From: Campylobacterota bacterium
GTDB lineage: Bacteria; Campylobacterota; Campylobacteria; Campylobacterales; Sulfurimonadaceae
Direction: 5' to 3'
NCBI GenBank assembly: GCA_013607635.1
Contig: VCAY01000009.1
Coordinates: 1-46,546, forward strand
Length of the DNA: 46,546 bases
Position 1 is the first letter of the stretch. Every line of letters begins with the position of its first letter. Position numbers and translations under genes: made by a program. The notes beneath the pieces are model-generated. The model did no database searches and was not told where the DNA came from. It saw only the letters and a program-made list of their open reading frames with translations. This document shows positions 2,268-42,261 of the stretch, one piece after another.

Positions 2268-2268
2268 A

Positions 2269-2973: not shown

Positions 2974-2982
2974 CTTTCTCTC

Positions 2983-4583: not shown

Positions 4584-4598
4584 AACTATCCCTTTTGT

Positions 4599-22569: not shown

Positions 22570-24524
22570 TGGCACTTATAGATCTACAAAATATATCTAA
22601 ACACTACTCGGCACAAAAGATTCTTACCGAAATTGACTTTCATGTCGATGAGGGTGAGCGGATCGTTATCATCGGGAAAAACGGCAGCGGTAAATCGACA
22701 CTGATGAAGATCATCAACGGCACCCTTGAAGCAGATGAAGGCAAACGGATCATCCAGCAAGATGTTGAAGTCAAGATGCTTGATCAGCGTCCAAAATTCC
22801 AAGAGGGGCACACAGTACGCCAAGCGGTTGAAGCGGGACTTGTCGAGATCAACAGAGCAAAAAAACGTTACGATGAGCTTACACACCTATTGGCAGAAGA
22901 TTTTGAGAACAAAACACTGCTAAGGGAACATGAACAACTCTCCAACTACATCGAACACCACAGCGCATGGAACCTTGATGACAAGATCGAGCGCATCATC
23001 CAACATTTTGATCTCAAACGCTACGAAAACAAGCCGATCGACTTACTTAGCGGTGGTGAGCAACGGCGTGTAGCACTCGCTTCACTGTTACTGCAAAAAC
23101 CAGACCTTTTGCTACTCGATGAGCCAACCAACCACCTCGATGTTTATATGGTGGAATTTTTAGAGGATCTGCTTTTAAAAGAAAAATTCACCCTTGTTTT
23201 TATCTCTCACGATCGTTACTTTATCGACCGCATCGCTACCAAATCGATCGAGGTGGAGGATTGTAAACTGCGTGAGTACAAAGGTGGATACAGCGACTAT
23301 CTGCGTCAAAAGGAGCAGTATCTGCAAAACCTCCAAAAACAGCATGAGAACCTCTTAAGCCTACTCAAGCGGGAAAACGAATGGTTTGCCAGAGGTGTCA
23401 AGGCAAGACTCAAGCGAAATGAAGGGCGCAAAGAGAGACTGATGCAGCTACGAGAGGCGGCAAAAACCAATCCCGCCAAGATTCGCAAAATGTCACTTGA
23501 ACTGCAGCGCGAAGCCAAACACTTTAACCGCCAAAAAAGCGTCAACAAACAAAAGATGCTCTTTGAGATCGAGTCGTTATATGTAACGCTTGGAGATAAG
23601 GAGCTTATCCACGATTTTAGTGCGAGGATACTCCAAAAAGATGTAATTGCCATTGTTGGACCAAACGGCAGTGGGAAATCCACCCTTTTAAAAATACTCC
23701 TTGGGCGCATAGAGCCAACTGCGGGCACGATCAAAAGGGGGGAGTTTACCATAGGTTATTTCGATCAACACCGAGAGATGCTTGATGATGATAAAAACCT
23801 CATAGAGACATTTTGTCCAAACGGCGGTGATCGTGTGCAGGTACAAGGGCGCGATATGCATGTGTACGGGTACCTTAAAAACTTCCTTTTTCCCAAAGAG
23901 TTTTTAGACAAAAAAATCGGTGTTTTAAGCGGTGGTGAGAAAAACCGTGTGGCGCTTGCCCTGCTTTTTACAAAAAAAGTGGATGTGCTGATCCTCGATG
24001 AGCCGACAAACGATCTTGATATACCGACTATCAACATCCTAGAGGAGCAACTCACCAACTTTGCCGGGGCTGTTATTTTGGTAAGTCACGACAGATATTT
24101 TGTCGATAAAATTGCCAAAAAACTCTTTATCTTTAAAAAAGATCATACCATCGAGGAGTCGTATCAGGCTTACAGTGAGTATCTTGAGCTTGAAAAAGAG
24201 CTGGGCGAGTTATATGTAATGGAGCAAGAAGCCACCTTGGCACAATCACAACCAAAACAAGAGAAAAAAGCAAAACCAAAACAACTCAAACTCACCTACA
24301 AAGAAAAAATTGCCTTAGAGAAACTGCCTCAAGAGATCGATGCACTCGAAGCACAGATTGGGCAAAAAAACAACTGCTTAGCTGACCCTGAGTGTTACGG
24401 TGAGGTAGGTCTAAGCCAGCTTGCCAAGGAGCTAGAAGCGCTTGAAGCTGAATATGAGCAAAAAGTGGAAGAGCTTTTAAATATTGAAGAGAAGGTAGAG
24501 GCGATCGAAAATGGCGCATCATAA
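22570..24524 (+). CDS. ABC-F family ATP-binding protein (Uup-like)
   Basis: Two ATPase cassettes (GKNGSGKST/LSGGEQRRVALA and GPNGSGKST/LSGGEKNRVALA), C-terminal coiled coil; ATG 22570 preferred. Confidence 0.92.
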
Positions 24525-24622
24525 ATATCAAAACACCACACCTTATCTTAAGCGGTATCGTCACTGCGATCAACATCGCTATCTATGTCGGGGTGGGAAG
24601 TTTTTGGATCTTGGCGATAAAC
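24512..24622 (+). pseudogene. 5' part of an interrupted small membrane-protein gene (hypothesis)
   Basis: Frame reads RIINIKTPHLILSGIVTAINIAIYVGVGSFWILAIN then stop; lacks an in-frame start unless one G is removed (ATGgCGCATC). Confidence 0.4.
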
Positions 24623-24658
24623 TAAGTAGATACCGTGCCACTTTTAAATCTTATTTTC

Positions 24659-24688
24659 TTGATTTTTAGAGGCATTATATGCTATAAT
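24659..24688 (+). promoter_or_regulatory. sigma70-type promoter candidate for the accessory operon
   Basis: TTGATT-N18-TATAAT with upstream TGC, 57 bp before the first ATG at 24745. Confidence 0.55.
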
Positions 24689-24744
24689 GTTCGTCGGATA
24701 GATAGTTGCCTATCATTTAGATTAATAATATTTTAGAAGTTAAA

Positions 24745-25020
24745 ATGAGAGTAAGTATGCTAATTAGTTTGTTGATAGTTTTAGCTATCAACTTTAGTGG
24801 TTGCGGTAATCAATCAAACCAAGAAGCAATCTATGAAAAGAAAAATGAAACTTTCTCGTTAGAAACAGAACCCAAATCATATAGAAAGTATGCTTTGGTT
24901 TCAAGTGGTAACATAGAGGTTAAAAAACTTTATCTGCAAATGGCGAAATTAAAGCAAGAAGTTTGTCTTTGGATATTTCAGGAAAAATTACATCATCAAA
25001 TAATCTTGACGGGTCATTAG
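24745..25020 (+). CDS. N-terminal fragment of an exported lipoprotein, frameshifted relative to the downstream ORF
   Basis: Lipobox INFSGCGNQ; frame lost after the A6 tract at 24922-24927; one added A gives continuous coding into ORF 24963..27131. Confidence 0.6.
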   Translation: MRVSMLISLLIVLAINFSGCGNQSNQEAIYEKKNETFSLETEPKSYRKYALVSSGNIEVKKLYLQMAKLKQEVCLWIFQEKLHHQIILTGH

Positions 25021-27131
25021 TTCGTTCATTTGATTATACAAGTCCATTAAATACTGATAACTATGTAGAGATTAGAGCCTTAAAAGTAGATGAATATCTC
25101 AATACAAACAATCTAAATGAATATTATTTACTCTCAAGCAGTGGTGAAGCTACACACAAAATCAAAGGTGAAGATGATAAAAGTATAGATAAAGAAAATA
25201 TAGAATTTATATTTAAAAATAATACCTGGACAATAAAAGGTGAAAATATAAATTTCAATCATACTTTAGTCGTACAAGGAGATTTAAATATAAAATCAAA
25301 TCATACATTTATAGCTGGTACTTTAATGGTTCAAGGGGATCTTAATGCAAGTGGTGAATTAAATATAAATACAGGAACACCATTTGAAAAGGCTTTAATA
25401 GTTGATAAAAATATTGAAGTTGATAAATTTGTAGCAATTGGTAGAGTTCACGGAAGTGGTACTTTTACAGCAAAAGGTGAAGTGAATATTTTAGGAAATG
25501 CTGAAATTGATGGGGATATAACTTTATGGGGTGATGCAAAAATTAACTTCTTAGATAATGTCTATAAATCTGCACTCTATGAAGCGCAGCAAGAAGCCAG
25601 TGAAAATAATACTACTATGATGCTAGTTCATTCACAGCTATTTTCAAATGCAAAAGGGAAAAATAGTGTAATACTTTTTACATTTGTAGAGGGAAATTAT
25701 ATACTAAATGAGAATATCATCAATCAGCTTTTAGATACAAATCAAACAGATGCATTCAAATTTAAATCATACCTATATGGTGCTACGATTGACTATGGGG
25801 CTCAGCTTCAAAAATTTGATGGATTGAGTCCATATTATCTAAACAAACACAAAATAGTTAAAAAATTATTATCTCAAGGCTATGAAGGTATAAAAATAAG
25901 TGAAAGTTTGGATATTGCTCCTTCAAATCTTTATCATACTTTTAAAGATAAAAATGGCAACATTATAGGAACATATCAAGTTTATTCTTTATCAAATCCT
26001 TTTAATGAAAATAATCTTACAGTTTTAACACAAACTCAAAGAGATGATGCAATATATGCTATTGATCATAAAGATGAAATAGAAGCAAATCAAGAAGTAG
26101 AAGCTAAAGAGAAACAAGCAGAGCAAAAGCAAGCTATCATTGATAATAATGACTTAAATCTTACAACTAAATCTGAAATGTTAAATGAGATAGAGGCATC
26201 TGAAAATAACGAGACCTCTATAAATAAAGAAGAGGTGAAAAAAGAAGCTACTCAAGATAGAGTTCAAGAGTGGGTTGAGTATAAAGATTTAGCTAGTGAT
26301 AAGCAAGTAATTGATGCTCAAGAGATAACTGTAGCAACTACTCAAACTCGTGGATGGTGGAAAAGAATTAGACGAGTTTTTAGACGAGTTTTTAGGGTTG
26401 TTACTTTTAGAGATTGTCATAAGAGGACTGAAAGAAAATTTATTTGGGGTGTTGACAGTGCTTCTGCATTTGAATCTAATGATAAGTGGGGTAAGAAGAT
26501 ACAACTAATGAATGATGCTTGGGAAAGCTGTACACCAACATCAGCTTCAATGATTTTAAATTATCATAGACTTAGAAAAGGAAAAAGTAGTTTGTACTAT
26601 AATGATGGGCATTGGGATAATTCTAAGTGGGCAAGTTTAATCAGATATTCTGCACCAAGAAATAATAATTACACAAAGAGAATCAGTAATAAATTTCATA
26701 CATCTCATAATTCTGGAACGGAAGTATGGCGATTGTATTGGACAGTCCCTTGGGTAATTACAACTGAACTTTGGAAAAATGGTACGTATGGGTATAGTTG
26801 GTCACACTACACTGCATTTTGGAATAGAACTTGGCATCATAACTTAGTGAAAAATTATACAAATAGAAACAATCCTATTATCTTTACTGCCTGGCAAAAT
26901 CATGGTAATTTAAAACAATTAGACAATAAATATTATTCTACTGGTAACCATAGTATGGTTGTAATAGGATACAAAAGAGATTATTATACTGGCAATTGTT
27001 GGAAAAAATTTTTACCTGAAAGAAAATGGCTTCTTGTAGATAGTACTTGGATGACAAGAGGGTATATAAGATTTGATATTAAATCCAATTATTGGAAATT
27101 TGGGACAATGACCTATGTACGTTCTTGGTAA
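24963..27131 (+). CDS. bactofilin-like beta-repeat region plus papain-like (C39-like) cysteine peptidase domain
   Basis: Repeats LVVQGDLNIKSN/LMVQGDLNASGELN/GDITLWG; C-terminal WESCTPTSASMILNYHR, GNHSMVVIGYK, KWLLVDSTW catalytic-type motifs. Confidence 0.7.
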   Translation: MSLDISGKITSSNNLDGSLVRSFDYTSPLNTDNYVEIRALKVDEYLNTNNLNEYYLLSSSGEATHKIKGEDDKSIDKENIEFIFKNNTWTIKGENINFNHTLVVQGDLNIKSNHTFIAGTLMVQGDLNASGELNINTGTPFEKALIVDKNIEVDKFVAIGRVHGSGTFTAKGEVNILGNAEIDGDITLWGDAKINFLDNVYKSALYEAQQEASENNTTMMLVHSQLFSNAKGKNSVILFTFVEGNYILNENIINQLLDTNQTDAFKFKSYLYGATIDYGAQLQKFDGLSPYYLNKHKIVKKLLSQGYEGIKISESLDIAPSNLYHTFKDKNGNIIGTYQVYSLSNPFNENNLTVLTQTQRDDAIYAIDHKDEIEANQEVEAKEKQAEQKQAIIDNNDLNLTTKSEMLNEIEASENNETSINKEEVKKEATQDRVQEWVEYKDLASDKQVIDAQEITVATTQTRGWWKRIRRVFRRVFRVVTFRDCHKRTERKFIWGVDSASAFESNDKWGKKIQLMNDAWESCTPTSASMILNYHRLRKGKSSLYYNDGHWDNSKWASLIRYSAPRNNNYTKRISNKFHTSHNSGTEVWRLYWTVPWVITTELWKNGTYGYSWSHYTAFWNRTWHHNLVKNYTNRNNPIIFTAWQNHGNLKQLDNKYYSTGNHSMVVIGYKRDYYTGNCWKKFLPERKWLLVDSTWMTRGYIRFDIKSNYWKFGTMTYVRSW

Positions 27132-28080
27132 AATATTTTTAAGTGTTTTTATAGTGTTTAGTTTGCTAGGTTGTGAACCATACAGCCCTGGCTACGATGA
27201 AAGAACTACAAAATTAATTTTAGTTAACGGCTTTTATATTGATAATAATCAATCAATACATATAAGGTATAATAAGAACACTAAACCATACATACACCAA
27301 TATAGTAAACTAGATGCAAATGCTTCCATATGGGAGCATTTATCAAATGATAATTTTAAAATCAATGATATCCAAGCAAATTTCAGAAATAACTATGTAG
27401 AAGTTATTCAAAAAGATAATATACTTTTTGAAAAATACTTACCTACCATTGATGATATAGCAATTAGTACAAATATAGAATTATCTTCAAACAAAATAGT
27501 TTACACTACATATCGAGATAAAATTAATTTTGGTTGGGATATGAAAACTTATATAGCTTCTATATATTCTAAGGATAAAAAATCAATTTATCATTTTTCG
27601 ATTGAAGATAAAGGTAGTTATTACAATATTTATTTAATTGATAGTTCACCATCTTATACACAAAATATATTGTATTATAATAATAAATATAACTTTATTA
27701 GAAAAAGAGACATTGAAGATTTTGATTATGGTAAATTTACAACATTTAGTATATCCACAAATGAAAAAGCGATGTTTTGCTATGAAGCAGCATATCAAGA
27801 TATACGATGTTTTATAAGAGATAGAAATAATAAAATAATTTCTCAAAAACTTTTTGGAGAAATTTATCCAAGAGAATATAAAAACATATACTATTCTATA
27901 GCATTAAGACAAGATGGAGGAGTAACTGCATTGGGAAGTTTAATATTTGATAATAATGATAATATGCATATATTTTATAATAATTTAGATAATGTAACTG
28001 GGAATTATTTTATGTATAGAATGTACAAAAAAGACAATCCAACAACACCACTATATGAACAAAAAATACCTTGGAAGTAG
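27115..28080 (+). CDS. exported lipoprotein, beta-propeller-like
   Basis: Lipobox FSLLGCEPY; NNDNMHIFYNN-type blades; paralogous to the next CDS at its C-terminus. Confidence 0.7.
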   Translation: MYVLGKIFLSVFIVFSLLGCEPYSPGYDERTTKLILVNGFYIDNNQSIHIRYNKNTKPYIHQYSKLDANASIWEHLSNDNFKINDIQANFRNNYVEVIQKDNILFEKYLPTIDDIAISTNIELSSNKIVYTTYRDKINFGWDMKTYIASIYSKDKKSIYHFSIEDKGSYYNIYLIDSSPSYTQNILYYNNKYNFIRKRDIEDFDYGKFTTFSISTNEKAMFCYEAAYQDIRCFIRDRNNKIISQKLFGEIYPREYKNIYYSIALRQDGGVTALGSLIFDNNDNMHIFYNNLDNVTGNYFMYRMYKKDNPTTPLYEQKIPWK

Positions 28081-28082
28081 CT
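28045..28082 (+). repeat. 38-bp direct repeat, copy 1
   Basis: ACACCACTATATGAACAAAAAATACCTTGGAAGTAGCT identical at 29099-29136. Confidence 0.95.
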
Positions 28083-28087
28083 TGGTA

Positions 28088-29134
28088 ATGAGATACATTA
28101 GTTTACTTTTAATGCTCTTTATTGTAATTGTTTTTAATGCTTGTGATAATCTTGATGAAGGTAGAAAGTTTTATAATTATACTTTTAATCTTGCTTCTCA
28201 AATTGTAAAGTATGATGATAAGTTATACTTTAGATATTATGAAAACAATAAAGATCAGCCTTTTAATGAAACCAATACAAGTTTATTATACGAATTTAAT
28301 GACCAAAATAAGAGTTGGTATCAAATTGCTTCAAAAAATGACACTAATGTATCAATTTTAAATGATTATACTATGTCTAAAATTCAAGATTTATATAATT
28401 TATTTGATGAAGAAAATATAATTAATACAACTCAATATATTGTTTTTAACGAAAACAAAGCCACAATCAAAGATATTGACACCAATGAAACAGTTGAAAG
28501 TATCACTTTACCTAGTGCTTATGAGGTGGCAAGTAACCTCTCTTTATCTATTGTAAATGGGGTATATAAAGTTGAATATAAGCCTTTTATTGAAACACAG
28601 TATGTCTGGAGTAAGAAGAGGTATATTATGTTTTTTGCTACCAATAAAGAGAGAAATTACTCTGGTGCAGGTGGTTACTATGACAGATATACAGGTTATT
28701 ATATATCTATATTAAAAAATGATAATAATAGCTGGGAATATGAACTTTTAGATACCAAACACAATTATAACATAGATGAACATAATATTGGTGGTCATAC
28801 ATATCTTTCTTTTGATGGGAAAGCTAGTATATATTATCAAGATGGCAAGTATATCACATTAAATGATAATAAAATTAGTATTAAAAAACTTTTTGGTCAA
28901 CTTTATAACAAAGAATTTGAAAATACTATTCATAGTATTTATAATTTTGGAAGTATGGAGATTTATAACGGAAATCATGGAACATATACATTCGATGAGA
29001 AAGGAAATATGCATCTATTTTATAATAAAAGAGAAGATATAATAAATAAAAATTATGATTATTTTTGGTATGCATATTTTGAAAAAGAAAATCCTAGTAC
29101 ACCACTATATGAACAAAAAATACCTTGGAAGTAG
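28088..29134 (+). CDS. exported lipoprotein, beta-propeller-like, paralog of the preceding CDS
   Basis: Lipobox IVFNACDN; DEKGNMHLFYNKRED; ends PLYEQKIPWK like the neighbour; start 28088 preferred over 28055. Confidence 0.7.
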   Translation: MRYISLLLMLFIVIVFNACDNLDEGRKFYNYTFNLASQIVKYDDKLYFRYYENNKDQPFNETNTSLLYEFNDQNKSWYQIASKNDTNVSILNDYTMSKIQDLYNLFDEENIINTTQYIVFNENKATIKDIDTNETVESITLPSAYEVASNLSLSIVNGVYKVEYKPFIETQYVWSKKRYIMFFATNKERNYSGAGGYYDRYTGYYISILKNDNNSWEYELLDTKHNYNIDEHNIGGHTYLSFDGKASIYYQDGKYITLNDNKISIKKLFGQLYNKEFENTIHSIYNFGSMEIYNGNHGTYTFDEKGNMHLFYNKREDIINKNYDYFWYAYFEKENPSTPLYEQKIPWK

Positions 29135-29136
29135 CT
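29099..29136 (+). repeat. 38-bp direct repeat, copy 2
   Basis: Identical to 28045-28082; spans the 3' CDS end, stop codon and spacer. Confidence 0.95.
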
Positions 29137-29487
29137 ATGAAACTATTTATCGGTGTTATAATATTGTTTAGCATTTTACATGCTCAAAACTATATATTTA
29201 ACAATAAACAAATCTCTCTTGAACAGATAAAAGAAAATATCTATAGAGATGAAAATAATAAAGAAGTTAGATTAAAAAACAACTTCTTTATTAAAATGCA
29301 AGTAGGTAAAAATATAAAACAATTAGCAAAGAAATATGATATTGATATAATCAAGAAATACTCTAAGCAGTTGTATTTAGTGAAAAGTACTTCTCAAAAT
29401 ATACTAGATTTGATACAGCAAATCAATGATGATGCAAACACACTCTATGCTTATCCTAATTTTAATAAAAAAATAGAGACTAGATGA
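29137..29487 (+). CDS. Sec-exported stand-alone subtilase-propeptide-like protein
   Basis: Signal peptide MKLFIGVIILFSILHA, then FIKMQVGKNIKQLAKKYDIDIIKKYSKQLYLVKSTSQNILDLIQQINDDANTLYAYPNF, resembling S8 N-terminal prodomains; overlaps the S8 gene by 4 bp. Confidence 0.6.
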   Translation: MKLFIGVIILFSILHAQNYIFNNKQISLEQIKENIYRDENNKEVRLKNNFFIKMQVGKNIKQLAKKYDIDIIKKYSKQLYLVKSTSQNILDLIQQINDDANTLYAYPNFNKKIETR

Positions 29488-30530
29488 AACTATTTGTATC
29501 TGCTCTAGTAATTCTATTTTTTGTTGCCTGTAATAAAAACACATCAGTAGAAGATGAACCTCTCTATCAAGAACAATGGGCTCTTCATTATGACAAAGCT
29601 TTCTATGATGCGTATGCCATCAATAAAGATGCACATATTCATGCAAGCAATAGTTTTAAAAACTACACAGGAAAAAACGTAAAAGTAGCTATTATTGATA
29701 TAGGATTTGATACTAATCATTTTGAATATAAAAATAATATTATAAAAACAATAAATAGCGCTGATGGTAGTTCCAATGTAGAATGTACAAATTCAAATGA
29801 GTGTTACCATGGAAGTGCAGTTACAGGCATAATAGCTTCAAACATAAACAATAAGGGGTTAAGAGGTATTGCTCCAGATGTAAAATTGATATTAATTAAA
29901 CTTGATTTAGCTGGATATGTAGGAGATGATGAAATATTAAATGCTTTACAATATGCACAAGATGAAAATGTAGATATTATAAATAATAGTTGGGGTACAG
30001 GAGATATTTCGCCAATTGTAAAAGAGAAAATAGATGATATGGCTACAAATGGCAGAGATGGGAAAGGTATAGTATTTGTTTTTGCAAGTGGGAATAAAGG
30101 GAAAGAAAATAATAAAGATGAATCTATGATAGATAGTGTTATAGGTGTTGGTTCAAGTGATGAAGAAAATTTAAGAGCTATCTATAGTAACTTTGGCAAT
30201 GGGTTAGATTTAGTAGCTCCCGGTGGATATAATTTAGGAATTACGACAACTTATGATAGTAATGATACAAATCATATAAGTGATTTTATGAAAGCGGAAG
30301 ATTATAAAAAATTTCAGGGTACTTCTGCATCTGCCCCAATAGTTACAGGAGCTATTGCATTATTATTGGAAAAAAATCCAAATCTTACAAGAGTCCAAAT
30401 TCAAGAAATATTAAATAAAACTTCAGATAAAATAGGTAATGTTGCGTATATAAATCATAGAAATAATTATTATGGTTATGGTAAATTAAATATAGACAAG
30501 ATGTTAAGTACAACAAATCGCAGAAACTAA
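29484..30530 (+). CDS. subtilisin-family (S8) serine protease lipoprotein
   Basis: Lipobox ILFFVACNK; VAIIDIGFDTNH, CYHGSAVTGIIA, INNSWGTG, FQGTSASAPIVTGAIALL catalytic motifs. Confidence 0.92.
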   Translation: MKLFVSALVILFFVACNKNTSVEDEPLYQEQWALHYDKAFYDAYAINKDAHIHASNSFKNYTGKNVKVAIIDIGFDTNHFEYKNNIIKTINSADGSSNVECTNSNECYHGSAVTGIIASNINNKGLRGIAPDVKLILIKLDLAGYVGDDEILNALQYAQDENVDIINNSWGTGDISPIVKEKIDDMATNGRDGKGIVFVFASGNKGKENNKDESMIDSVIGVGSSDEENLRAIYSNFGNGLDLVAPGGYNLGITTTYDSNDTNHISDFMKAEDYKKFQGTSASAPIVTGAIALLLEKNPNLTRVQIQEILNKTSDKIGNVAYINHRNNYYGYGKLNIDKMLSTTNRRN

Positions 30531-30646
30531 CAAGGCTACACTTGCGATATTTTATTACTTTGTAGGCTCAGGCTATCTACGTTTCTAAAGAGGTTTACAA
30601 ATACGGCGGTATCGTCACCACAATAACTTCTTCGCTTGTGCTATAA
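30508..30646 (+). pseudogene. 3' part of an interrupted small membrane-protein gene (hypothesis)
   Basis: VQQIAETNKATLAIFYYFVGSGY in one frame, continuing as YVSKEVYKYGGIVTTITSSLVL-stop after a one-base frame change near 30575. Confidence 0.4.
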
Positions 30647-30677
30647 TTGCGCTTATCAAACAGCAAGGTTATAGCAG

Positions 30678-32135
30678 GTGCAAAACAAACAAAAATTTAT
30701 ACTCAAACTCTTCCCTGAGATTATGATCAAAGGCTCAAGTGCCAAGCGTCAGATGGTTGGGCAGCTTTATGCAAATCTTACGAATATTTTAGAGAAGATT
30801 GATGCTGGCATAGAGGTTAAAAAACACTCCGACAAGATCGAGATCTATTCTCCCCTCTCCTGCTTGGAAGCTGTCAAACAAAAACTTACCAACACTTCTG
30901 GGATCGAGACTGTGCTTGAAGTAACACAGGTTGATAACATCACCACGCTCGATGCACTTAAAGTTGCCGTAGAAAAACTTGTTGCACCAAAACTTACCAA
31001 TAAAACTTTTGTTGTTCGTGCAAAACGAAGTGGAAAACACCCTTTTACCTCCATGGATATTGAACGGAGTGTGGGTGGATATCTTTTAGCGCACACGCAG
31101 GCAAAAAAAGTACAACTCAAAAATCCCGATATAACAGTAGAGTTTGAGCTGATCCAAGACCAGCTTAACCTTATCACCGCAAGATACTCAGGGCTCAGTG
31201 GCTTTCCTCTAGGAACACAAGGGGATATCCTCTCACTTATGTCTGGCGGATTTGACTCTACGATCGCCTCTTACCTTACGATGAAGCGGGGGATCAAAAC
31301 CCATTTTATCTTTTTTAATCTCGGTGGTATGGCGCATGAGATTGGTGTCAAACAGGTAGCATTTTACCTGTGGAGCAAGTTTGCTTCATCCCACAAAGTA
31401 AAATTTATCTCAATCCCTTTTGATGATGTTATCGGTGAGATATTTGCCTCTACACCTCCAACCTACATGGGGGTGATGCTCAAGCGCCTGATGCTACAAG
31501 CCAGTGAGCAGATCGCAGACAAGCTAGAGATCGATGCACTCTTAACGGGTGAGAGTGTTGCACAGGTTTCAAGCCAGACACTCAGAAACTTAGCCCTTAT
31601 CGATCAAGCAACCAACAAGCTGGTTCTTAGACCCCTTGCAACGATGAATAAGCCGGAGATCATTGCCCTTGCAGAGAAGATCGGTACACGCCATTTTGCA
31701 GAAAATATGCCCGAATATTGTGGTGTTATCTCACAAAACCCAATCACCCACGGCTCATTTAAGCGGATGGAAAAAGTAGCACAAAAGTTTAACTATGATG
31801 TTTTACAAAAAGCGGTTGATGATGCCAAGATTATCGACATCGACACTGTAGTAGATGATGTTAACCAACTTCAAGCTGTAGAGATTGTCAATGAGATCGA
31901 TCCCGATAAACACACCATCATAGATATAAGAACGGAAGGAAAAGAGCTGACAACAAAGGCTAAACAGATCGCCATACCGTTTCACAACCTCAAAAAAGAG
32001 TTTGAAAAACTACCGCAAAATAAAGAGTATCTGCTTTACTGCGACAAAGGTGTGATGAGTCAACTGCATGCGCAGTATCTTATAGATCATTACAAATGCG
32101 ACAATGTCAAAGTTTACAGACCCAAAGAGGACTAA
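30678..32135 (+). CDS. thiI: tRNA 4-thiouridine synthetase ThiI with C-terminal rhodanese domain
   Basis: THUMP-like N-terminus, SGGFDSTIASYL PP-loop, rhodanese LLYCDKGVMSQLHA; GTG start. Confidence 0.92.
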   Translation: MQNKQKFILKLFPEIMIKGSSAKRQMVGQLYANLTNILEKIDAGIEVKKHSDKIEIYSPLSCLEAVKQKLTNTSGIETVLEVTQVDNITTLDALKVAVEKLVAPKLTNKTFVVRAKRSGKHPFTSMDIERSVGGYLLAHTQAKKVQLKNPDITVEFELIQDQLNLITARYSGLSGFPLGTQGDILSLMSGGFDSTIASYLTMKRGIKTHFIFFNLGGMAHEIGVKQVAFYLWSKFASSHKVKFISIPFDDVIGEIFASTPPTYMGVMLKRLMLQASEQIADKLEIDALLTGESVAQVSSQTLRNLALIDQATNKLVLRPLATMNKPEIIALAEKIGTRHFAENMPEYCGVISQNPITHGSFKRMEKVAQKFNYDVLQKAVDDAKIIDIDTVVDDVNQLQAVEIVNEIDPDKHTIIDIRTEGKELTTKAKQIAIPFHNLKKEFEKLPQNKEYLLYCDKGVMSQLHAQYLIDHYKCDNVKVYRPKED

Positions 32136-32986
32136 TCCCCCCAGTTGAGCTTTTGTTTGAGTACATCAAAGTAGCTAAACTCCTCTCTGTGAAGCAGTTT
32201 AGCTCTTTTACTTGCCAGCTTTATGTGCAGGCTCTCCCCCTGCTCTAGCTCATGCATATCTTGCCCATCGATGATGATAAGCGCTTTTTTATCACTTGAT
32301 TGCATCTCGATCTGAAACTCCCCAGGCAGCACAACCGGTGTTTGTGTCAGTGAGTGGGGGCAAATGGGTGTGAGGGTAAACACTTCCGTCAGAGGAAACA
32401 GCACAGGACCACCTGCTGAGAGGTTATACGCAGTTGAGCCTGTCGGTGTTGCCACGATCACCCCATCACCGTAGTAGGTGTTAAAAGAGTTACCATCAAC
32501 AAGTGTTTCAATATGGATCATGTTAGAGATCGATGGGCGGGTAAGCACCACATCGTTAAAGGCATAGATGCTCACCTCCTCACCATTTTTTATGACACTT
32601 GCCTCTAACACGGCGCGCTCATCGATCCTAAACTTCCCGTTTGCAAGGTTTGCCACAAAAGTATCAAGCTCATCCATCCCAACATCGGCTAAAAAACCAA
32701 GATTGCCGGCATGGATCCCAAAAACAGGGATATCATAATCAAAACTGCGCCTCACAGCAGAGATGAGCGTTCCATCTCCGCCAAGAGTTACCAAAACATC
32801 ACACTGCTTGCACAAAAGGTCAAACTCCATCCCCATCACATCGATCATCCCACCGCTGATACTTTCGATATAAACATCGATGCCGTGCGACTCAAAGATC
32901 GATTTGAGCTCAAAAAAGCTGTCTTTGAGTTGTGGTGTTGATGGGCGAAGAATAACACCCACTTTTTTAATCGTTTTTCTTTTCAA
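32132..32986 (-). CDS. nadK: NAD kinase
   Basis: LVTLGGDGTLI, GNLGFLADV, VATPTGSTAYNLSAGGPV. Confidence 0.95.
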   Translation of the reverse strand: MKRKTIKKVGVILRPSTPQLKDSFFELKSIFESHGIDVYIESISGGMIDVMGMEFDLLCKQCDVLVTLGGDGTLISAVRRSFDYDIPVFGIHAGNLGFLADVGMDELDTFVANLANGKFRIDERAVLEASVIKNGEEVSIYAFNDVVLTRPSISNMIHIETLVDGNSFNTYYGDGVIVATPTGSTAYNLSAGGPVLFPLTEVFTLTPICPHSLTQTPVVLPGEFQIEMQSSDKKALIIIDGQDMHELEQGESLHIKLASKRAKLLHREEFSYFDVLKQKLNWGD

Positions 32987-33025
32987 ACATACTCTTTTAT
33001 CAATTTTTTTGATTATTATACACTA

Positions 33026-33044
33026 TTTCGCTATAATCGCGAAA
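33026..33044 (+). promoter_or_regulatory. -10 element of the aspS promoter embedded in a dyad
   Basis: TTTCGC-TATAATC-GCGAAA about 24 bp upstream of the aspS start. Confidence 0.5.
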
Positions 33045-33067
33045 ATATTTTTAGATAGGACTCTATA

Positions 33068-34825
33068 TTGAGAACTCATTACTGTACAGATTTAAACGAA
33101 TCAAATGTTGGAGAAGAGGTAACTGTCGTAGGTTGGGCTAACAGCTACCGCGACCATGGTGGGATCATTTTTATCGATCTTCGAGATAAAACGGGGCTGA
33201 TCCAGCTCACATGTGACCCAGAGGAGAGCCAAGAAGCGCACAAAGTGGCTGATAGCGTAAGAGACGAGTATGTGCTTATCGCTAAAGGGAAAGTACGCCT
33301 TCGCGGTGAAGGGCTGACCAATCCTCGCCTCAAAACAGGATCGATCGAGATCGTTGTTGATGAGCTTATTATTGAGAACAAATCAGCGCCACTGCCATTT
33401 GTGATTGGCGATAAAAAAGTTGGTGAGGAAACAACACTCAAGTACCGCTACTTAGAGCTAAGAGATCAGTCGATGTATGAGGCGTTTCGTCTTCGCTCAA
33501 AAGCGGCCATCGCTGCAAGAAACATCCTTGATGTAAACGGATTTTTAGAGGTTGAAACACCAATCCTTACAAAATCAACTCCAGAGGGTGCAAGAGACTA
33601 TCTTGTTCCATCCCGCGTACACAATGGTGAGTTTTACGCCCTTCCACAGTCTCCTCAGCTTTTCAAACAGCTTTTGATGGTTGGCGGGTTTGATAGATAT
33701 TTTCAGATCGCTAAATGTTTCCGCGATGAAGATCTGCGTGCCGATCGTCAGCCAGAGTTTACACAAATAGATGTTGAGATGAGTTTTTGTGATCAAGAGG
33801 ATGTGATCAAAATAGCAGAAGAGCTTATTGTTGCGATGTTTAAAGCGTGTGATATTGAAGTAAAAGCACCGTTTAAGCGTATGCCTTACAGCGAAGCGAT
33901 GGAGAAGTATGGTTCAGACAAGCCGGATCTTCGTTACGATCTTGCCATGGTTGATGTTATCGATATTTTTGAACGATGTGACAATGAGATCTTTACAAAT
34001 ATTGCAAAAAATCCAAAGAAAAACCGTATCAAAGCTTTGAAAGTTCCGGGTGCAGACTTGGTATTTTCTAAGCGTGAGATGAAATCGTTTGAAGATTTTG
34101 TACGCAAATTTGGTGCACAAGGGCTTGGGTACTTCCAGATGAAAGAGGATGGTCTTAAAGGTCCACTTATCAAGTTCTTTACAAAAGAAGACATTCAGCT
34201 ACTTATCGAGAGACTTGAGATGAAAGTCGGCGATGTGGTATTTTTTGGTGCAGGTGAGAGAAAAGTTGTTTGGGATTATATGGGAAGATTTAGAAACTTC
34301 ATCGCTGAACATGAGAAGATGAATCTTGTTGATCCTGATAAGTATGAGTTTGTATGGGTTGTTGACTTTCCAATGTTTGAGGTGGAAGATGGTCGCGTAA
34401 AAGCACTGCACCACCCATTTACCATGCCAAAAGATACTGACAAAGATGATGTTGAAGAGATTGAGTCGATCGCTTACGATATCGTTCTAAATGGTGTTGA
34501 GCTTGGTGGTGGATCGATTCGTATCCACAAAGAGGAAGTACAAGAGGAGATCTTTAAACTTCTTGGCATCAGCGAAGAGGAAGCAAGAGAGAAATTTGGC
34601 TTCTTGCTTGATGCTCTTAAATTTGGTGCGCCTCCACACGGCGGTTTTGCGATCGGTTTTGACAGACTTATGATGCTAATCACGAAAAAATCATCGATCC
34701 GTGATGTTATTGCATTCCCTAAAACACAAAAAGCATCATGTGTGCTCACAGATGCTCCTTCACCGGTTGACAATACACAACTAAGAGAGCTTCACATCAG
34801 ACTTCGTGAGCAAACAAAAGCGTAA
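33068..34825 (+). CDS. aspS: aspartyl-tRNA synthetase (bacterial type)
   Basis: Class II aaRS motifs, [51 protein letters not shown] start. Confidence 0.96.
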
Positions 34826-35394
34826 TGAAAAAACTATTTTTAATCATCGGTGCACCCGGTTCAGGTAAAACAACAGATGCCCAGCTTATCGCTAAAAACA
34901 ACGAGCAGATAACCCACTACTCTACTGGAGATATGCTTCGTGCAGAAGTGGCTTCAGGGAGTAAACGGGGCAAAGAGATAGAGAGCTACATCTCTCGTGG
35001 TGCTATTGTTCCCATTGAGATCGTAATTGAGACAATCGTTGGAGCGATCAAAAAAGCACCAACTGACTATATCATCATCGATGGTTACCCTCGAAGTGTT
35101 GAGCAGATGGTGGAGCTAGATAAGTATCTGCAAGATACGCCTGATCTCAAACTCACCAATGTAATCGAAGTTGAAGTAAGTGAAGAGACGGCAAAACAGA
35201 GGGTTCTTGGTCGCTCACGTGGCGCAGATGATAACAACGAAGTGTTTTACAACCGCATGAAAATCTACAATGAACCACTACAACAGATCCGCGATTTTTA
35301 CAATGAAAAAAATCTTCTTAAAGTGATCTCTGGAGAGGGAACGATTGAGGAGATCGTCTCTGAGATGGAAAGCTTTATTAAGGCAAGAATGTAG
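34825..35394 (+). CDS. adenylate kinase, short-LID type
   Basis: [23 protein letters not shown]; 189 aa; overlaps the aspS stop by one base. Confidence 0.85.
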
Positions 35395-35402
35395 CCACTA
35401 GA

Positions 35403-36343
<941 letters not shown>

Positions 36344-36428
36344 CTCTTTGCCTTTATAGTAATATTTTTGTGCAATTATACTTTGGATTCACTTATGTAT
36401 TGCTATAATAGAAAAAATAGATTTTGAG

Positions 36429-37181
36429 GTGCCCTTTAGGATGCAAACAATGAACTTTTATGCGGTGATCATCGGCACAGAGATCCTTAACGCTAGACGA
36501 GTCGATAAACACTTTAGCTTTTTACAAAAGGAGCTTGCAAAGTACAGGCATGAGCTTTTTGCCTCTTTTGTGATCAAAGATGATAAAGAGCTCATCACTC
36601 GCACTTACAAAATGATCCAAGCAGACCCTAACGGTGTGATGTTCTCCTTTGGAGGGATAGGCTCGACACCTGATGACCTCACACGAGAGATCGCTTCACA
36701 AGTTTTTAAAAACAGCCCCACTGTGGTGCATGAGAAATTTCAACAAGATATCATAGAGCGTTTTGGTGACGAAGCCTATCCCCATAGAATCCAGATGGCA
36801 GAGCTTCCTCCAGATGCCGATCTGATCAAAAATCCTATCAATAATATGTCGGGGTTTTCCCTTGATGATAGATACTTTTTTGTTCCGGGATTTCCATCGA
36901 TGGCACACCCAATGCTGCACAATGTGATCCAAACACACTTTTCTCAATCTACCACTAAATATAGAAAAACCCTCTATGCTTACACCAGTGAAAATACTTT
37001 GATCGATGTGATGCAAAAGGTTCCAAACAGTGTAGAACTCTCCTCTTTGCCAATATTTGTAGATGAAAAACCAAATGTTGAGATATCTGTCGCAGGAGCT
37101 GATCTTGACAAGGTTATAACCACTTTTAAGCACTTTACAGACGCTCTTGAGAAATTACAAATCAAATATAAATTAATGTAA
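36429..37181 (+). CDS. molybdopterin-binding domain protein (CinA/MoaB-like)
   Basis: VIIGTEILNARRVDKHF, FSFGGIGSTPDDLTREI; true start may be a downstream ATG. Confidence 0.85.
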   Translation: MPFRMQTMNFYAVIIGTEILNARRVDKHFSFLQKELAKYRHELFASFVIKDDKELITRTYKMIQADPNGVMFSFGGIGSTPDDLTREIASQVFKNSPTVVHEKFQQDIIERFGDEAYPHRIQMAELPPDADLIKNPINNMSGFSLDDRYFFVPGFPSMAHPMLHNVIQTHFSQSTTKYRKTLYAYTSENTLIDVMQKVPNSVELSSLPIFVDEKPNVEISVAGADLDKVITTFKHFTDALEKLQIKYKLM

Positions 37182-37225
37182 TTTCTCTAAAGACCGATAT
37201 ATCTGCAAATACAAGGAAATTTATT

Positions 37226-37354
37226 ATGATAGTTTGGTTATTGGTACTTTTTTTGCTTATTGTATTTGCATATATTGTGTACAGGGTGGTTTTTCTCTCC
37301 GAAGAGATAGAAACAGAAGATACCGCGGAGCACAATTACACCTTCAAACTATGA
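37226..37354 (+). CDS. small single-TM membrane protein (42 aa), not in the ORF track
   Basis: ATG at 37226 after ACAAGGAAAT; MIVWLLVLFLLIVFAYIVYRVVFLSEEIETEDTAEHNYTFKL. Confidence 0.6.
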   Translation: MIVWLLVLFLLIVFAYIVYRVVFLSEEIETEDTAEHNYTFKL

Positions 37355-37364
37355 GAGAAGTTAC

Positions 37365-37961
37365 ATGGCAATAGTAATGAACAATCACGTATTTAAGGGA
37401 CACCGCACTCTGCTTGGCAGTAAATTTGTAACCTATGGAGAGCTAGAGCTTTCAACAAGAACAAATCTGTTTCAAAAATCGGAAAGTTTTAACTGGGGGA
37501 GTAATGGTTCAGGGTCTTTACAGCTTGCTTTTGCCATGCTATACCAAATCACTACAGATGAAGAACTTTCTTCTAAATACGCTGCTAAGTATGCCCAAGA
37601 TGTTGTAAAACAACTCAACTCAAGAGACTGGGTTTTAAGCGCCTCCGAAGTCATAAAATGGATCAACGGCAACTGCGAGATCAAACCACAAGAGCAGCAA
37701 CAAACTCCAAATAAAGTAAAAAAAGCTCCTAAAAAACGCCAATCTAATATAGTTAAAGATATTTGCAAAGAGCTCAACATCACTCAAAAGCAACTTGCCG
37801 AGATACTTGAGATACCGGAGGGCACAGTCTCAAGCTGGGCGGTCAAAAATGAGATACCTAGACTTGGCAAAAAAGCGATTGAGTTTTATATCCAAAACCT
37901 CAAAAACCAAAAGATCGTTGACAGTTACAAAAATTTCATAGAGCTTCTGCAAGCTTCATAA
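37365..37961 (+). CDS. DUF6166-like domain fused to a C-terminal helix-turn-helix
   Basis: FKGHRTLLGSKFVTYGELELSTRT...FNWGSNGSGSLQLAFAMLYQ, then ITQKQLAEILEIPEGTVSSWAVKNEIP. Confidence 0.65.
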   Translation: MAIVMNNHVFKGHRTLLGSKFVTYGELELSTRTNLFQKSESFNWGSNGSGSLQLAFAMLYQITTDEELSSKYAAKYAQDVVKQLNSRDWVLSASEVIKWINGNCEIKPQEQQQTPNKVKKAPKKRQSNIVKDICKELNITQKQLAEILEIPEGTVSSWAVKNEIPRLGKKAIEFYIQNLKNQKIVDSYKNFIELLQAS

Positions 37962-37973
37962 AAAGGGAAAAGC

Positions 37974-38165
37974 GTGAAACCAAAAAACGAAGTCACAAGA
38001 AGCCTTTTGATAGACAAGCAAACATGGGATGATGCCATGAAATATTCAAGAGTAAGATACAAAATGAGCCTGAGCAAAGTGATAGAATCACTCTTGCAAG
38101 ATTGGCTGGCCAAAGAGAAGCGAAAACCACTCGACAACGAAAAACAGGGGAAGTTTTTCAATTAA
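37974..38165 (+). CDS. small ribbon-helix-helix-like protein
   Basis: 63 aa, TRSLLIDKQTWDDAMKYSRVRYKMSLSKVIESLLQDWL; GTG start, same strand as the DUF6166-HTH gene. Confidence 0.55.
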   Translation: MKPKNEVTRSLLIDKQTWDDAMKYSRVRYKMSLSKVIESLLQDWLAKEKRKPLDNEKQGKFFN

Positions 38166-38672
38166 CTATCTTGCATAGTCTGTGTTTTTTGGGGCATTTT
38201 CATCATAGTCTAAAAGCTCAAGTATTGTTTTTTTGTTCATTTTTCTTGCAAAATCTATTGCGCTAAACCCTTTGGAGTCCTTGGCGTATTGATTGGCACC
38301 ATGTTGCAAAAGGAGTTTAGCGATCTCTACTCGTCCATAACAAGCAGCAGCCATCAGAGGTGTAAAACCACTTTTTCTATTGGTTTGATTCACATCTCTG
38401 CCTTGCTCAATGAGGTAGTTAACCATCTCTTTATCATCGTAGGTGATTGCAATATCAAACACACTCACCCCCTCATCATCAAAGTCAAAAATATCAGCCC
38501 CAAACGCAACAAGCATCATCAAAGTATCAAAACTGCAACGCGCACGAATAGCACAGGCTAGCACACCCTCACCCGCTTCGTTGCAGTCTTGGATATCACC
38601 ACCGCTTTTAAAATAGTTTTTGAGCCCTAAATAATCATCATTTTTTAAAAGTTCGCTTAATTTATGATCCAT
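38166..38672 (-). CDS. ankyrin repeat protein
   Basis: Ankyrin units such as SGFTPLMAAACYGRVEIAKLLLQHGANQYAKDSKGFSAIDFA. Confidence 0.88.
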   Translation of the reverse strand: MDHKLSELLKNDDYLGLKNYFKSGGDIQDCNEAGEGVLACAIRARCSFDTLMMLVAFGADIFDFDDEGVSVFDIAITYDDKEMVNYLIEQGRDVNQTNRKSGFTPLMAAACYGRVEIAKLLLQHGANQYAKDSKGFSAIDFARKMNKKTILELLDYDENAPKNTDYAR

Positions 38673-38750
38673 AGGTGAAGTATAGTGTAAAACTTATTAG
38701 GAAAATTTAATTATAATTGCGTCCATAAATCAATTAAGCAGGAATTCATT

Positions 38751-39947
38751 ATGGAAGTTATAGAGACAACAGACGCTTTTAAAGCACTTATTGAAAACAT
38801 TAAAGCAACAGCGGGTTACAAAGACCCTTTGGCTTTTGGTATCGCCAGAGTAGATTTAGGTCAGCTTAACCCTGAAAAATCACTTCAAGCAACCTATCCG
38901 GTAGTAAACTGGAATGAAAACTTCGGCAGTGCGGCGATCTTTATTAAAGCACTTATAGAGCAAGGGATTGAGATCGACTTTAGCGCTGATGAACAGGTAT
39001 TTGAGATCAACTTAGAGTTTTTACAATCTTGTCTCAATGCATTTACACCTTATGCCGATGAGGCTTACGGTGATGCACACAAAAATATTCAGGTAGTTTC
39101 AGCACTTTACAACCAGATGATCAACGACGATTACAAAGATGGTGAGTTCAAAGTGTGCTTTATCTTCAATGATGCGCCACTACAAAGTGTTGAAGCAACA
39201 TACCTTAAACTCTATGCGATGAGTTTGGCAAAAGTTGAACTTCGCTCTATCAACCTTAATGGTGCTTTTGGTGCATTGCCAAATGTTGCATGGTCACACG
39301 GAAAGCCGATCGAGCTTGATTATCTAAGAGAGTTTGAGATCGAGCTTAAGCTCTCAGGTGATTATCCACACATAGACTTTGTAGATAAGTTCCCAAGATT
39401 CCTACAACACATCATCCCAGCTGACAATACGCGTATTTTAGATACTTCAAAAGTAAGATTTGGTGCGCAACTAGCCGCAGGAACTACAGTCATGCCAGGA
39501 GCTAGCTATATCAACTTCAATGCCGGAACTACAGGTGTAAGTATGGTTGAGGGGCGTATCAGCTCTTCTGCAATTGTTGGTAATGGCAGTGATGTTGGTG
39601 GTGGCGCATCGATCTTGGGTGTGCTTTCAGGAACAGACGGTAATCCTATCAGTGTTGGTAAAAACTGCCTTTTGGGTGCGAACTCTGTTTGTGGTATCCC
39701 ACTTGGTGATGGATGTATCATCGATGCAGGGATCGCAGTACTTGAAGGAACCAAATTTATTGTCGAGGATGAGGAGCTTGAGAAGATCAATGCTGCAAAT
39801 CCAGAGACTAACCTAGAGGGTGATTGGATCAAGGGTAAAGATCTTGCAGGGCTTAACGGTATCCACTTCCGTCAAGACTCTTTTACTGGTGAGATGGTCA
39901 TTCTTCGCTCAAAAAGAGAAGTAAAACTCAACGCTGATCTTCACTAA
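38751..39947 (+). CDS. dapD: 2,3,4,5-tetrahydropyridine-2,6-dicarboxylate N-succinyltransferase
   Basis: DapD-like left-handed beta-helix (PGASYINFNAGTTGVSMVEGRISSSAIVGNGSDVGGGASILGVLSG). Confidence 0.92.
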   Translation: MEVIETTDAFKALIENIKATAGYKDPLAFGIARVDLGQLNPEKSLQATYPVVNWNENFGSAAIFIKALIEQGIEIDFSADEQVFEINLEFLQSCLNAFTPYADEAYGDAHKNIQVVSALYNQMINDDYKDGEFKVCFIFNDAPLQSVEATYLKLYAMSLAKVELRSINLNGAFGALPNVAWSHGKPIELDYLREFEIELKLSGDYPHIDFVDKFPRFLQHIIPADNTRILDTSKVRFGAQLAAGTTVMPGASYINFNAGTTGVSMVEGRISSSAIVGNGSDVGGGASILGVLSGTDGNPISVGKNCLLGANSVCGIPLGDGCIIDAGIAVLEGTKFIVEDEELEKINAANPETNLEGDWIKGKDLAGLNGIHFRQDSFTGEMVILRSKREVKLNADLH

Positions 39948-39971
39948 TTATCTTTTCTCATACTACTTTTC

Positions 39972-39998
39972 TTCTTAGCACTACCATGGTGTTAAGAG
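39972..39998. other. hairpin downstream of dapD
   Basis: TTCTTAGCAC-TACCATG-GTGTTAAGAG: 10 pairs including wobbles; no clear U run. Confidence 0.4.
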
Positions 39999-40102
39999 GA
40001 GTCTATTATAAACATCACAAGCAATATATCATCTTTGCAGATAAACGCTACTTCGATACGAGCGCAAGACGGGATTCTTGGCACGCTTTTAGATATAAAA
40101 GC

Positions 40103-41491
40103 CTAAAAAGCTGAAGAGTCAAGAATATTCATACTCTCTAGCTTAAAAAGCATCGAGGCTTTGGGGTCAAAATCATCGAGCTCTTTTCCAAGCTCAAGTG
40201 TACTAAACACCGGTTTGGCAACGATATATCTACCCTCTTTTTCACCCTTTTTTGTTTTTACACCCCAAACATTTTGAAAAATCACCACCTGATCATTAAA
40301 AGTACCCACATACAAAGCAATATGTCCAGGTTTATAAAGAAGTGTACTAAAAGGTTTAGCCTGCTGTTTAATAATCTGTAGTTTTTGTGCATCACGCATC
40401 CCTTTAAGTGAGATCACTTTACCCACTTTACTTTGAGAGGACGAGTTTCTTGGTAACCACAATCCAAAAGGGGTAAAAAAATCGCGCAGTGTCGCAGAGC
40501 AATCACGTTGCTCATAGATACCGCCCCAACCGTACCTTCCTTTTTGCAACTCCCCAAGCACAGCATCTATACTCTTTTTTTCAAACTTCAAAAGGTGTGA
40601 TGAAGCGATCTTTTTAGATATGGCTGATCGATTATAGTATGGCTTATCCGCTTTATCTGCACTCACAGTTAGAACATAGTAGTTCTTTGCATCTTCATCG
40701 ATGAGTGGCAATACCATCCCCACTCTTGAATCAAAAAGATAATGCCCCTGTGCATCATTGATCGCTACACCATCTTTGAGTAAAAACACCTGTTTTGCCT
40801 TTTGCCAAATGTCGGTATATTTTTCATCAATGTAAGCGATATCTCTGCTTTTAAGCCATCCAAAACCAAAACTTGTCTCTACAAATACCCATTTTTTATC
40901 TGCTGAGTAGTGCGAGACAAACAGGGGCTTGTTCGCAGCGATCAAAGAGTTTTGCAAATAATCAAACGGATACCCCTCTCCAGCTTTTTTTGGATCGAGA
41001 AATAGAGGTTCATCTGTTGGCATAGCACGAAGATTGAGCGTTTTGAGTGTGATAGCGTTTTTATTGATAGTTCCGTAGCGTGAAAGGTTGCAGTTTTGTT
41101 TTTGTGAACGAAAAAAATCTTCCTCCAACGCTTGTAGTGTCATTGAGTAGCTGTTATTGGCATCAAAACTCTCAAATGCCCACATCGCTTCATCTGGGTC
41201 TATAGATATCTTTTGCAGATTCCAAACCCTAAAATAATCTTGAACAAAAGAATCAATATCCCCAATAGAGTGAGCATCTTGAAAAAAACTATAGGCAAAA
41301 GCCTCTTGGGGCAACTCCTCTAAGTCTCTAAGAGTCTTAGGTGCAGTTTTTTTTGTAAGCTTTTGTTGTGTAAGCGGCTCTTTAGATGCACAACCAACAA
41401 GCAACAAACAACACAAAGCAATACTAAAAGGTTTCAAGATCACACCCTTTTTATTGGTATCAATCAACATCCCCAAATCTTCCGACAACAC
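40103..41491 (-). CDS. SH3 domain / NlpC-P60 family lipoprotein
   Basis: Lipobox LLLVGCASK; GRYGWGGIYEQRDCSATLRDFFTPFG and KPGHIALYVG motifs; probable GTG start at 41443. Confidence 0.8.
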   Translation of the reverse strand: MLSEDLGMLIDTNKKGVILKPFSIALCCLLLVGCASKEPLTQQKLTKKTAPKTLRDLEELPQEAFAYSFFQDAHSIGDIDSFVQDYFRVWNLQKISIDPDEAMWAFESFDANNSYSMTLQALEEDFFRSQKQNCNLSRYGTINKNAITLKTLNLRAMPTDEPLFLDPKKAGEGYPFDYLQNSLIAANKPLFVSHYSADKKWVFVETSFGFGWLKSRDIAYIDEKYTDIWQKAKQVFLLKDGVAINDAQGHYLFDSRVGMVLPLIDEDAKNYYVLTVSADKADKPYYNRSAISKKIASSHLLKFEKKSIDAVLGELQKGRYGWGGIYEQRDCSATLRDFFTPFGLWLPRNSSSQSKVGKVISLKGMRDAQKLQIIKQQAKPFSTLLYKPGHIALYVGTFNDQVVIFQNVWGVKTKKGEKEGRYIVAKPVFSTLELGKELDDFDPKASMLFKLESMNILDSSAF

Positions 41492-42122
41492 GACCGATCA
41501 CTTCAATCTCATTTTCAGAGAGTGTTTGTGTATTGTAAACAGAATTGTCCGAGATCACATCGATCATCCCATCGATCCTTTTTTGGATCCTTTTGATAAA
41601 AAGTCCCGCTTCGGTTCTGATGGTGAAAATGCCCCCGCGATTGATATCTGTTTTACTGCGATTGATAAATACAATATCGTTATAGCTAAAAGTTGGCTCC
41701 ATCGAATCACCGCTAACATTGATCGCTTCAATATTTTTAAGTTCTCGCTCCCCTCCAAGCATAAAAACAAACTGTGAAGGCAACTCCAACTCCTCGATCT
41801 CCTCAAATTCATTCTCACTTCCGCCACCGGCACTCGCATTAATATCATTAAAATAGCGGATCATATAGTTGTTTGTTGCTTGAACCAAACTCTCCGGTGA
41901 CTGTCCATATAGCAGCCAGTTGATCGAAATACTGCGACTTGCACAAAAATCCAACAGCTCCGCAAAAGGCACCTTTTCCCTTTTTTTCATTGTAGCAAAG
42001 TTCATCTGTGAAATCCCAAGCACTTCCGCCACATCTTTATCAAACACTTTTTTGGGTGCAAACTCAGGTGAGAGTATACTTTTTATCTCTTCAACAATCT
42101 CAGAAAACTTATTCATAACCAA
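41460..42122 (-). CDS. CI/LexA-like regulator with S24 peptidase domain
   Basis: N-terminal HTH (VAEVLGISQMNFATMKKREKVPF), S24 SGDSMEPTFSYNDIVFI and FIKRIQKR. Confidence 0.85.
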   Translation of the reverse strand: MVMNKFSEIVEEIKSILSPEFAPKKVFDKDVAEVLGISQMNFATMKKREKVPFAELLDFCASRSISINWLLYGQSPESLVQATNNYMIRYFNDINASAGGGSENEFEEIEELELPSQFVFMLGGERELKNIEAINVSGDSMEPTFSYNDIVFINRSKTDINRGGIFTIRTEAGLFIKRIQKRIDGMIDVISDNSVYNTQTLSENEIEVIGRVVGRFGDVD

Positions 42123-42159
42123 CCCCTTTTTGAACTTATACCAAAGGCAAATCTTTGCA

Positions 42160-42177
42160 GGACTAACTGGTTAATCC
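42160..42177. promoter_or_regulatory. operator candidate upstream of the S24 regulator
   Basis: GGACTAAC-TG-GTTAATCC dyad with one mismatched pair; a second dyad GCAAA-TC-TTTGC at 42147-42158. Confidence 0.45.
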
Positions 42178-42261
42178 AAAAAGATTTAACGTAGCAAATG
42201 ATAGCATATCTTTTGTGGCATGGAAATTTTTAGATCTTGACAATAAGAGCAACAAGAGCTC

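Follow-up and report, generated by a model that had tools for sequence, protein, structure and literature searches.

Organization of the five-gene block

The DNA analyzed here, called the window, is a 46,546-nucleotide stretch of contig VCAY01000009.1 from a Campylobacterota bacterium of the Sulfurimonadaceae (assembly GCA_013607635.1). Positions 24745-30530 of its plus strand hold five co-oriented genes, g1 to g5, which overlap or almost abut (a 17-nt overlap of g1 with g2, a 4-nt overlap of g4 with g5 and a 2-nt gap between g3 and g4). An ABC-F ATPase gene ending at 24524 lies on their left and thiI, starting at 30678, on their right. All five genes begin with a hydrophobic export signal. 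The 5′ part of g1 (24745-25020) encodes a signal peptide with the lipobox SGC and runs out of frame past a deletion point; the body of the gene (24951-27131) encodes a bactofilin-like beta-solenoid, a charged helical and cationic linker, and a papain/C39-like C-terminal domain. The next two genes are paralogues and probable beta-propellers, g2 (27115-28080) encoding a lipoprotein and g3 (28091-29134) a lipoprotein-like protein with the lipobox FNAC. The product of g4 (29137-29487) is a putative exported, free-standing subtilase prodomain, of the fervidolysin-prodomain or ORF_2_N-like kind, with a C-terminal Arg. Finally, g5 (29484-30530) encodes an S8 subtilase lipoprotein with the lipobox VAC and the triad Asp72/His109/Ser281 but no prodomain in cis.

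An earlier note on this DNA had described five overlapping or nearly abutting plus-strand genes, all with export signals, and these features were confirmed. Two of its four lipoboxes need qualification: NAC in g3 is non-canonical at position -2, and SGC in g1 lies in a frame other than that of the g1 body. The shared promoter that it proposed is plausible, the candidate being a sigma-70-like consensus match (TTGATT-18 nt-TGcTATAAT, extended TG; 24659-24688, plus strand); yet matches of this type number 60 in the DNA and 43.6 in shuffled DNA, close to chance frequency in an AT-rich stretch.

The AT-richness described for the block was confirmed, and its composition judged foreign, on 306 kb of contigs from the 1.4-Mb draft genome to which the window belongs. 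The 277 genes in this sample have a GC content of 0.402 ± 0.038, and the block genes provide the five lowest values among them (g1, 0.304; g2, 0.244; g3, 0.252; g4, 0.234; g5, 0.296). Related blocks in two other genomes are AT-rich as well (GC 0.29 in L058 and 0.30 in L060). The contrast with the surroundings is nevertheless clear in the window only, because the short flanks of L058 are as AT-rich as its block and those of L060 are barely higher in GC.

The block lies between permuted remnants of a symporter gene

In three relatives (G091, G079 and G611) a DASS-family symporter gene (TIGR00785) comes directly after the ABC-F gene, and next in line is the gene corresponding to window positions 42262-43611. 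The block is absent at this site, as is the whole stretch from 24.6 to 42.2 kb. Remnants of the same symporter family border the block in the window. On the left, at 24511-24622 (plus strand), start codons are joined to the last ~23 codons; on the right, at 30531-30620 (plus strand), a frameshifted piece of the region before the C-terminus is found. Both sides carry the 13-bp direct repeat GCGGTATCGTCAC, at 24552-24564 and, inside the right remnant, at 30606-30618 (both plus strand). A simple insertion of the block into the symporter gene does not fit, because the remnants are permuted, the C-terminal piece lying left of the block and the preceding piece right of it. We regard the block as an operon that was probably gained by horizontal transfer.

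The segment that G091 and G079 lack at this place (window 24600-42250, ~17.7 kb) also includes thiI and an NAD kinase-like gene; within the genus, thiI was detected in only 19 of 41 genomes.

The five-gene order recurs at unrelated genomic sites

Relatives of g1 were sought in 399 genomes of the order and by scanning 84,980 species genomes, and were found exclusively in Campylobacterota. A Sulfurimonas metagenome-assembled genome (L058, JAMOMX010000395.1) carries the same five genes with almost identical overlaps. In Candidatus Thiovulum imperiosus (L038/L060), g1, two tandem lipoprotein genes, g4 and g5 follow one another in that order, the tandem lipoproteins in the g2/g3 slots having no pairwise similarity to g2 and g3 of the window. 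The five-slot order thus occurs in three genomes at unrelated sites, the conserved co-occurrence by which the earlier note had proposed to check its idea. A fourth copy is probably present in G197, split by assembly: one contig ends after g1 and a g2/g3-type lipoprotein gene, and another has g4-g5 near its end. Since the same cluster stands at other sites in two further genomes, the block appears to travel as a unit, and sequence comparison identifies it as a real mobile five-gene unit that is partly decayed in the window.

Single components were found as well. A g3 homologue, 45% identical to g3 of the window, stands as a lone gene in G019, and in G443 two g2-like genes stand in tandem. In Thiovulum, the second of the two lipoprotein genes (L060:12441-13661) is almost a copy of its neighbor, holds a run of N, and is a recent tandem duplication.

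Genes 4 and 5 probably encode a split prodomain and protease

The earlier note's assignment of g5 to the S8 proteases held firmly (PF00082, E 1e-53, 183 bits). The triad Asp72, His109 and Ser281 is conserved across 18 homologues. In its 348 residues there is little besides the catalytic domain, and since this domain begins soon after the lipobox there is no room for a prodomain in cis.

A separate propeptide-like partner had also been proposed, and the evidence for g4, of about 100 mature residues, bears this out. All matches of window g4 to prodomain families fall below the curated cut-offs (18.5 bits for Pfam ORF_2_N, cut-off 29.2), and ORF_2_N matches were obtained for 3 of 14 members of the g4 family (best E 4.5e-5). 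A profile search of 397 Campylobacterota genomes detected homologues of g4 in 33 of them. An S8 protease was adjacent or fused to the g4 homologue at every one of the 30 loci inspected, window included: downstream in 20, upstream in 6 (one with S8 genes on both sides) and fused in 4. A further g4-S8 fusion, in L057, has a Fervidolysin_NPro match above cut-off, an S8 domain and clear profile similarity to g4. Free-standing g4 proteins in the usual arrangement end in Arg (26/29) or Lys (2/29), some of them being close relatives and so not independent, and an aligned Arg is present at the junction of prodomain and catalytic domain in four of five fused forms. Distances between g4 proteins and between g5 proteins are correlated over 22 pairs (r 0.73; 0/5000 permutations), with a contribution from shared ancestry. 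Taken together, these comparisons make g4 very probably a prodomain partner of g5 encoded in trans. Because, by analogy with ORF2 of Aeromonas sobria, g4 should end in the P1 residue of the protease, g5 is likely to cut after Arg or Lys.

Since most g4-g5 pairs have no g1-g3 beside them, the pair is not bound to these genes.

A second class of g4 (L087, L088, L089, L091, L092 and L093) has the S8 gene upstream, a gene order closer to that of ORF2/ASP, and a terminal Arg in one of six members. Elsewhere, large lipoproteins that carry Ig-like or carboxypeptidase-regulatory domains adjoin the g4-g5 pairs of L055 (1430 residues; 1249-5541) and L043 (1073 residues; 2200-5421), and a tandem duplicate lipoprotein pair adjoins that of L049 (1539-4641), which suggests that the partner genes of g4-g5 pairs are exchangeable.

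Gene 1 is broken in the window

The signal peptide and lipobox of window g1 (24745-25020) are read in one frame and its body (open at 24951-27131) in another, whereas L058 g1 is a single frame of 807 residues. Alignment to L058 placed a net 28-nt deletion at 24930/24931 (plus strand), which shifts the frame and removes TDGPLADVHxN, a motif common to four g1 homologues, and ruled out a single-base homopolymer slip. Programmed frameshifting at the A6 run was rejected in favor of a deletion, since the gap takes out this conserved motif and nothing about the local RNA folding stands out (z -1.2). Real decay thus appears the likelier origin of the break on sequence grounds; an assembly error is conceivable.

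The domains named in the earlier note find sub-threshold matches in g1, to bactofilins (PF04519, 22.9 bits, cut-off 27.9) and to C39-like peptidases (PF13529, 17.4 bits, cut-off 24); its picture of one intact gene does not stand, the frames being split by the deletion. A g1 homologue in L039 similarly matches PF01640 below cut-off (21.7 against 26 bits). Candidate peptidase residues are Cys in SCTPTSAS, His in NHSMVVIGY and Asp in LLVDSTW; Cys and His are retained in four of the five homologues that reach this domain and lost in L062. Arg-Gly occurs in the linker of 5/6 homologues, and the Thiovulum linker is far less basic. The AlphaFold model of L058 g1, of low confidence overall (pLDDT 58, locally >85), has a beta-solenoid at about residues 68-296 and a poorly modeled C-terminal domain; Foldseek gave weak matches to solenoids.

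For g2 and g3, modeling is consistent with the propeller-like lipoproteins described earlier, in a weak form: the g3 model is all-beta at low confidence (pLDDT 64), and most of the structures that it matches best are beta-propellers, with low TM-scores. We regard the two genes as encoding probable paralogous beta-propeller lipoproteins.

Proposed mechanism and alternatives

We propose, with a probability of about 60%, that the block is an operon for a lipid-anchored protease of the surface or periplasm, whose core is a subtilase split into g4 and g5. The proposal builds on features drawn from genome comparison, namely the gene order, the mobility, the linkage and fusion of g4 with g5, the terminal Arg and the broken g1. 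All five products would be exported. The g4 protein would act as a secreted prodomain in trans, equivalent to a propeptide that is already cut; it would aid the folding of g5 and then block the active site, its C-terminal Arg occupying the S1 pocket. Removal or degradation of g4 would release free g5, and the active protease would cut after Arg or Lys at the cell surface or in the periplasm. The remaining genes would supply co-exported lipoprotein partners, two of them propeller-like and the third a beta-solenoid scaffold with a papain-like peptidase. Where g1 is intact, g5 would be expected to process it within the Arg-rich linker that leads to the papain-like domain, as in PrtP/PrcA. We hold this role of g1 as a substrate only tentatively; the idea is weakened by the far less basic linker of Thiovulum. 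The window copy would be incapable of the step, because its g1 is broken.

Among the alternatives, a degradative surface complex like dentilisin, although doubtful, survives best. Here g5 and its trans prodomain would digest environmental protein with no cascade within the operon, g2 and g3 would capture substrate or stabilize the complex, and g1 would be a scaffold whose papain-like domain serves as a second digestive enzyme. The position of a lipoprotein S8 protease beside upstream lipoproteins argues for this view, as do the frequency of propeller-like folds in binding proteins, the lack of g1 beside the majority of g4-g5 pairs, and the similarity of g5 to the PrtP equivalog NF033595, which is sub-threshold (69 bits against a cut-off of 300). 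However, no homology of g1-g3 to PrcA/PrcB was found (g1 and g3 had no match when scanned against NCBIfam), and the conservation of gene order and two-protease content across genera suggests a more specific coupling.

The proteolytic cascade envisaged in the earlier note is possible as an inference but unlikely in its full form, an autonomous mobile surface cascade of an undescribed kind in which g5, lipid-anchored next to its substrate, would cut the Arg-Gly linker of g1 and so free or activate the papain-like domain, with the propellers as receptors for targets or cargo.

The antagonistic role that the same note had considered received no specific support and is very improbable. In such an antagonistic or defense module g1 would be a surface toxin with a papain-like domain freed by g5, and g2 and g3 immunity or binding proteins; a mobile AT-rich island with tandem paralogous lipoproteins and two protease classes would suit it, and S8 members do occur among defense proteins. 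However, the only PADLOC matches were to a generic subtilase model and, weakly and for g5 of L058, to IetS, a secretion apparatus is absent, and there is no recognized immunity gene. No g1 relative was found in viral contigs or plasmid collections, which speaks against a phage or plasmid origin.

Least probable of all is that unrelated AT-rich genes gathered by chance beside a secreted protease of the ordinary kind. This could account for g2/g3-type and g1-type genes found away from g4-g5 but is already disfavored, since three genomes share the order and the overlaps at sites that are unrelated.

Relation to known systems

The operon centered on a split subtilase, which we prefer, is only in part new. 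As an undescribed system, the claim of the earlier note stands for the five-gene set as far as a literature search, thin on subscription journals, could find, and falls for the core mechanism, which has a precedent in ASP/ORF2. The block would thus be a newly named mobile lipoprotein-protease module of environmental Campylobacterota. To our knowledge, ASP/ORF2 is the main known case of a prodomain encoded in trans. Within one phylum, the prodomain described here occurs both as a separate protein and fused to its protease, with a conserved terminal Arg that resembles a ready-cut propeptide.

For its N-terminal part, g1 resembles bactofilins, beta-solenoid ice-binding proteins and ComZ in general repeat fold, according to the weak Pfam and Foldseek matches. 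It differs from them in that intact g1 is a predicted exported lipoprotein with a C-terminal papain-like domain, and its matches lie below the family cut-offs.

In Aeromonas sobria, ORF2 is an external chaperone and inhibitor of the protease ASP and places its C-terminal Lys at the catalytic center of ASP (PMC5638518). Both systems have a protease without its own propeptide beside a separate exported partner, which ends in Lys in ORF2 and in Arg in g4, and g4 weakly resembles Pfam ORF_2_N. The differences lie in gene order, orf2 being downstream of asp whereas g4 is upstream of g5 here and in most loci (the reverse in a minority), and in size: ORF2 should have more than one domain, since the name ORF_2_N denotes an N-terminal domain, while g4 is a small protein, and g5, unlike ASP, is a compact lipoprotein with little outside the catalytic domain.

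A lipoprotein subtilase with lipoprotein partners has its closest precedent in dentilisin of Treponema denticola (PrcB-PrcA-PrtP). PrtP is encoded with two lipoproteins, and cleavage of PrcA was reported to depend on PrtP, although it persisted in a Ser447Ala PrtP mutant (PMC8167434). Like the block, this is a lipoprotein operon ending in a lipoprotein S8 protease that is linked to the processing of a partner lipoprotein. In contrast to g5, PrtP has a prodomain in cis (propeptide residues 19-158; PMC8167434), and dentilisin has neither a papain-like partner nor a separate prodomain gene.

Fervidolysin-type subtilases combine a prodomain of the same kind as g4 (PF22148) with the S8 domain in one chain, and Campylobacterota themselves contain homologues in this fused form (L057, L081-L083 and L085). 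The block departs from them in that its prodomain is a separate gene product and its protease carries a lipobox. The series of split and fused forms yields a testable prediction of specificity, and it may represent the evolutionary steps from a propeptide to a separate chaperone-inhibitor.
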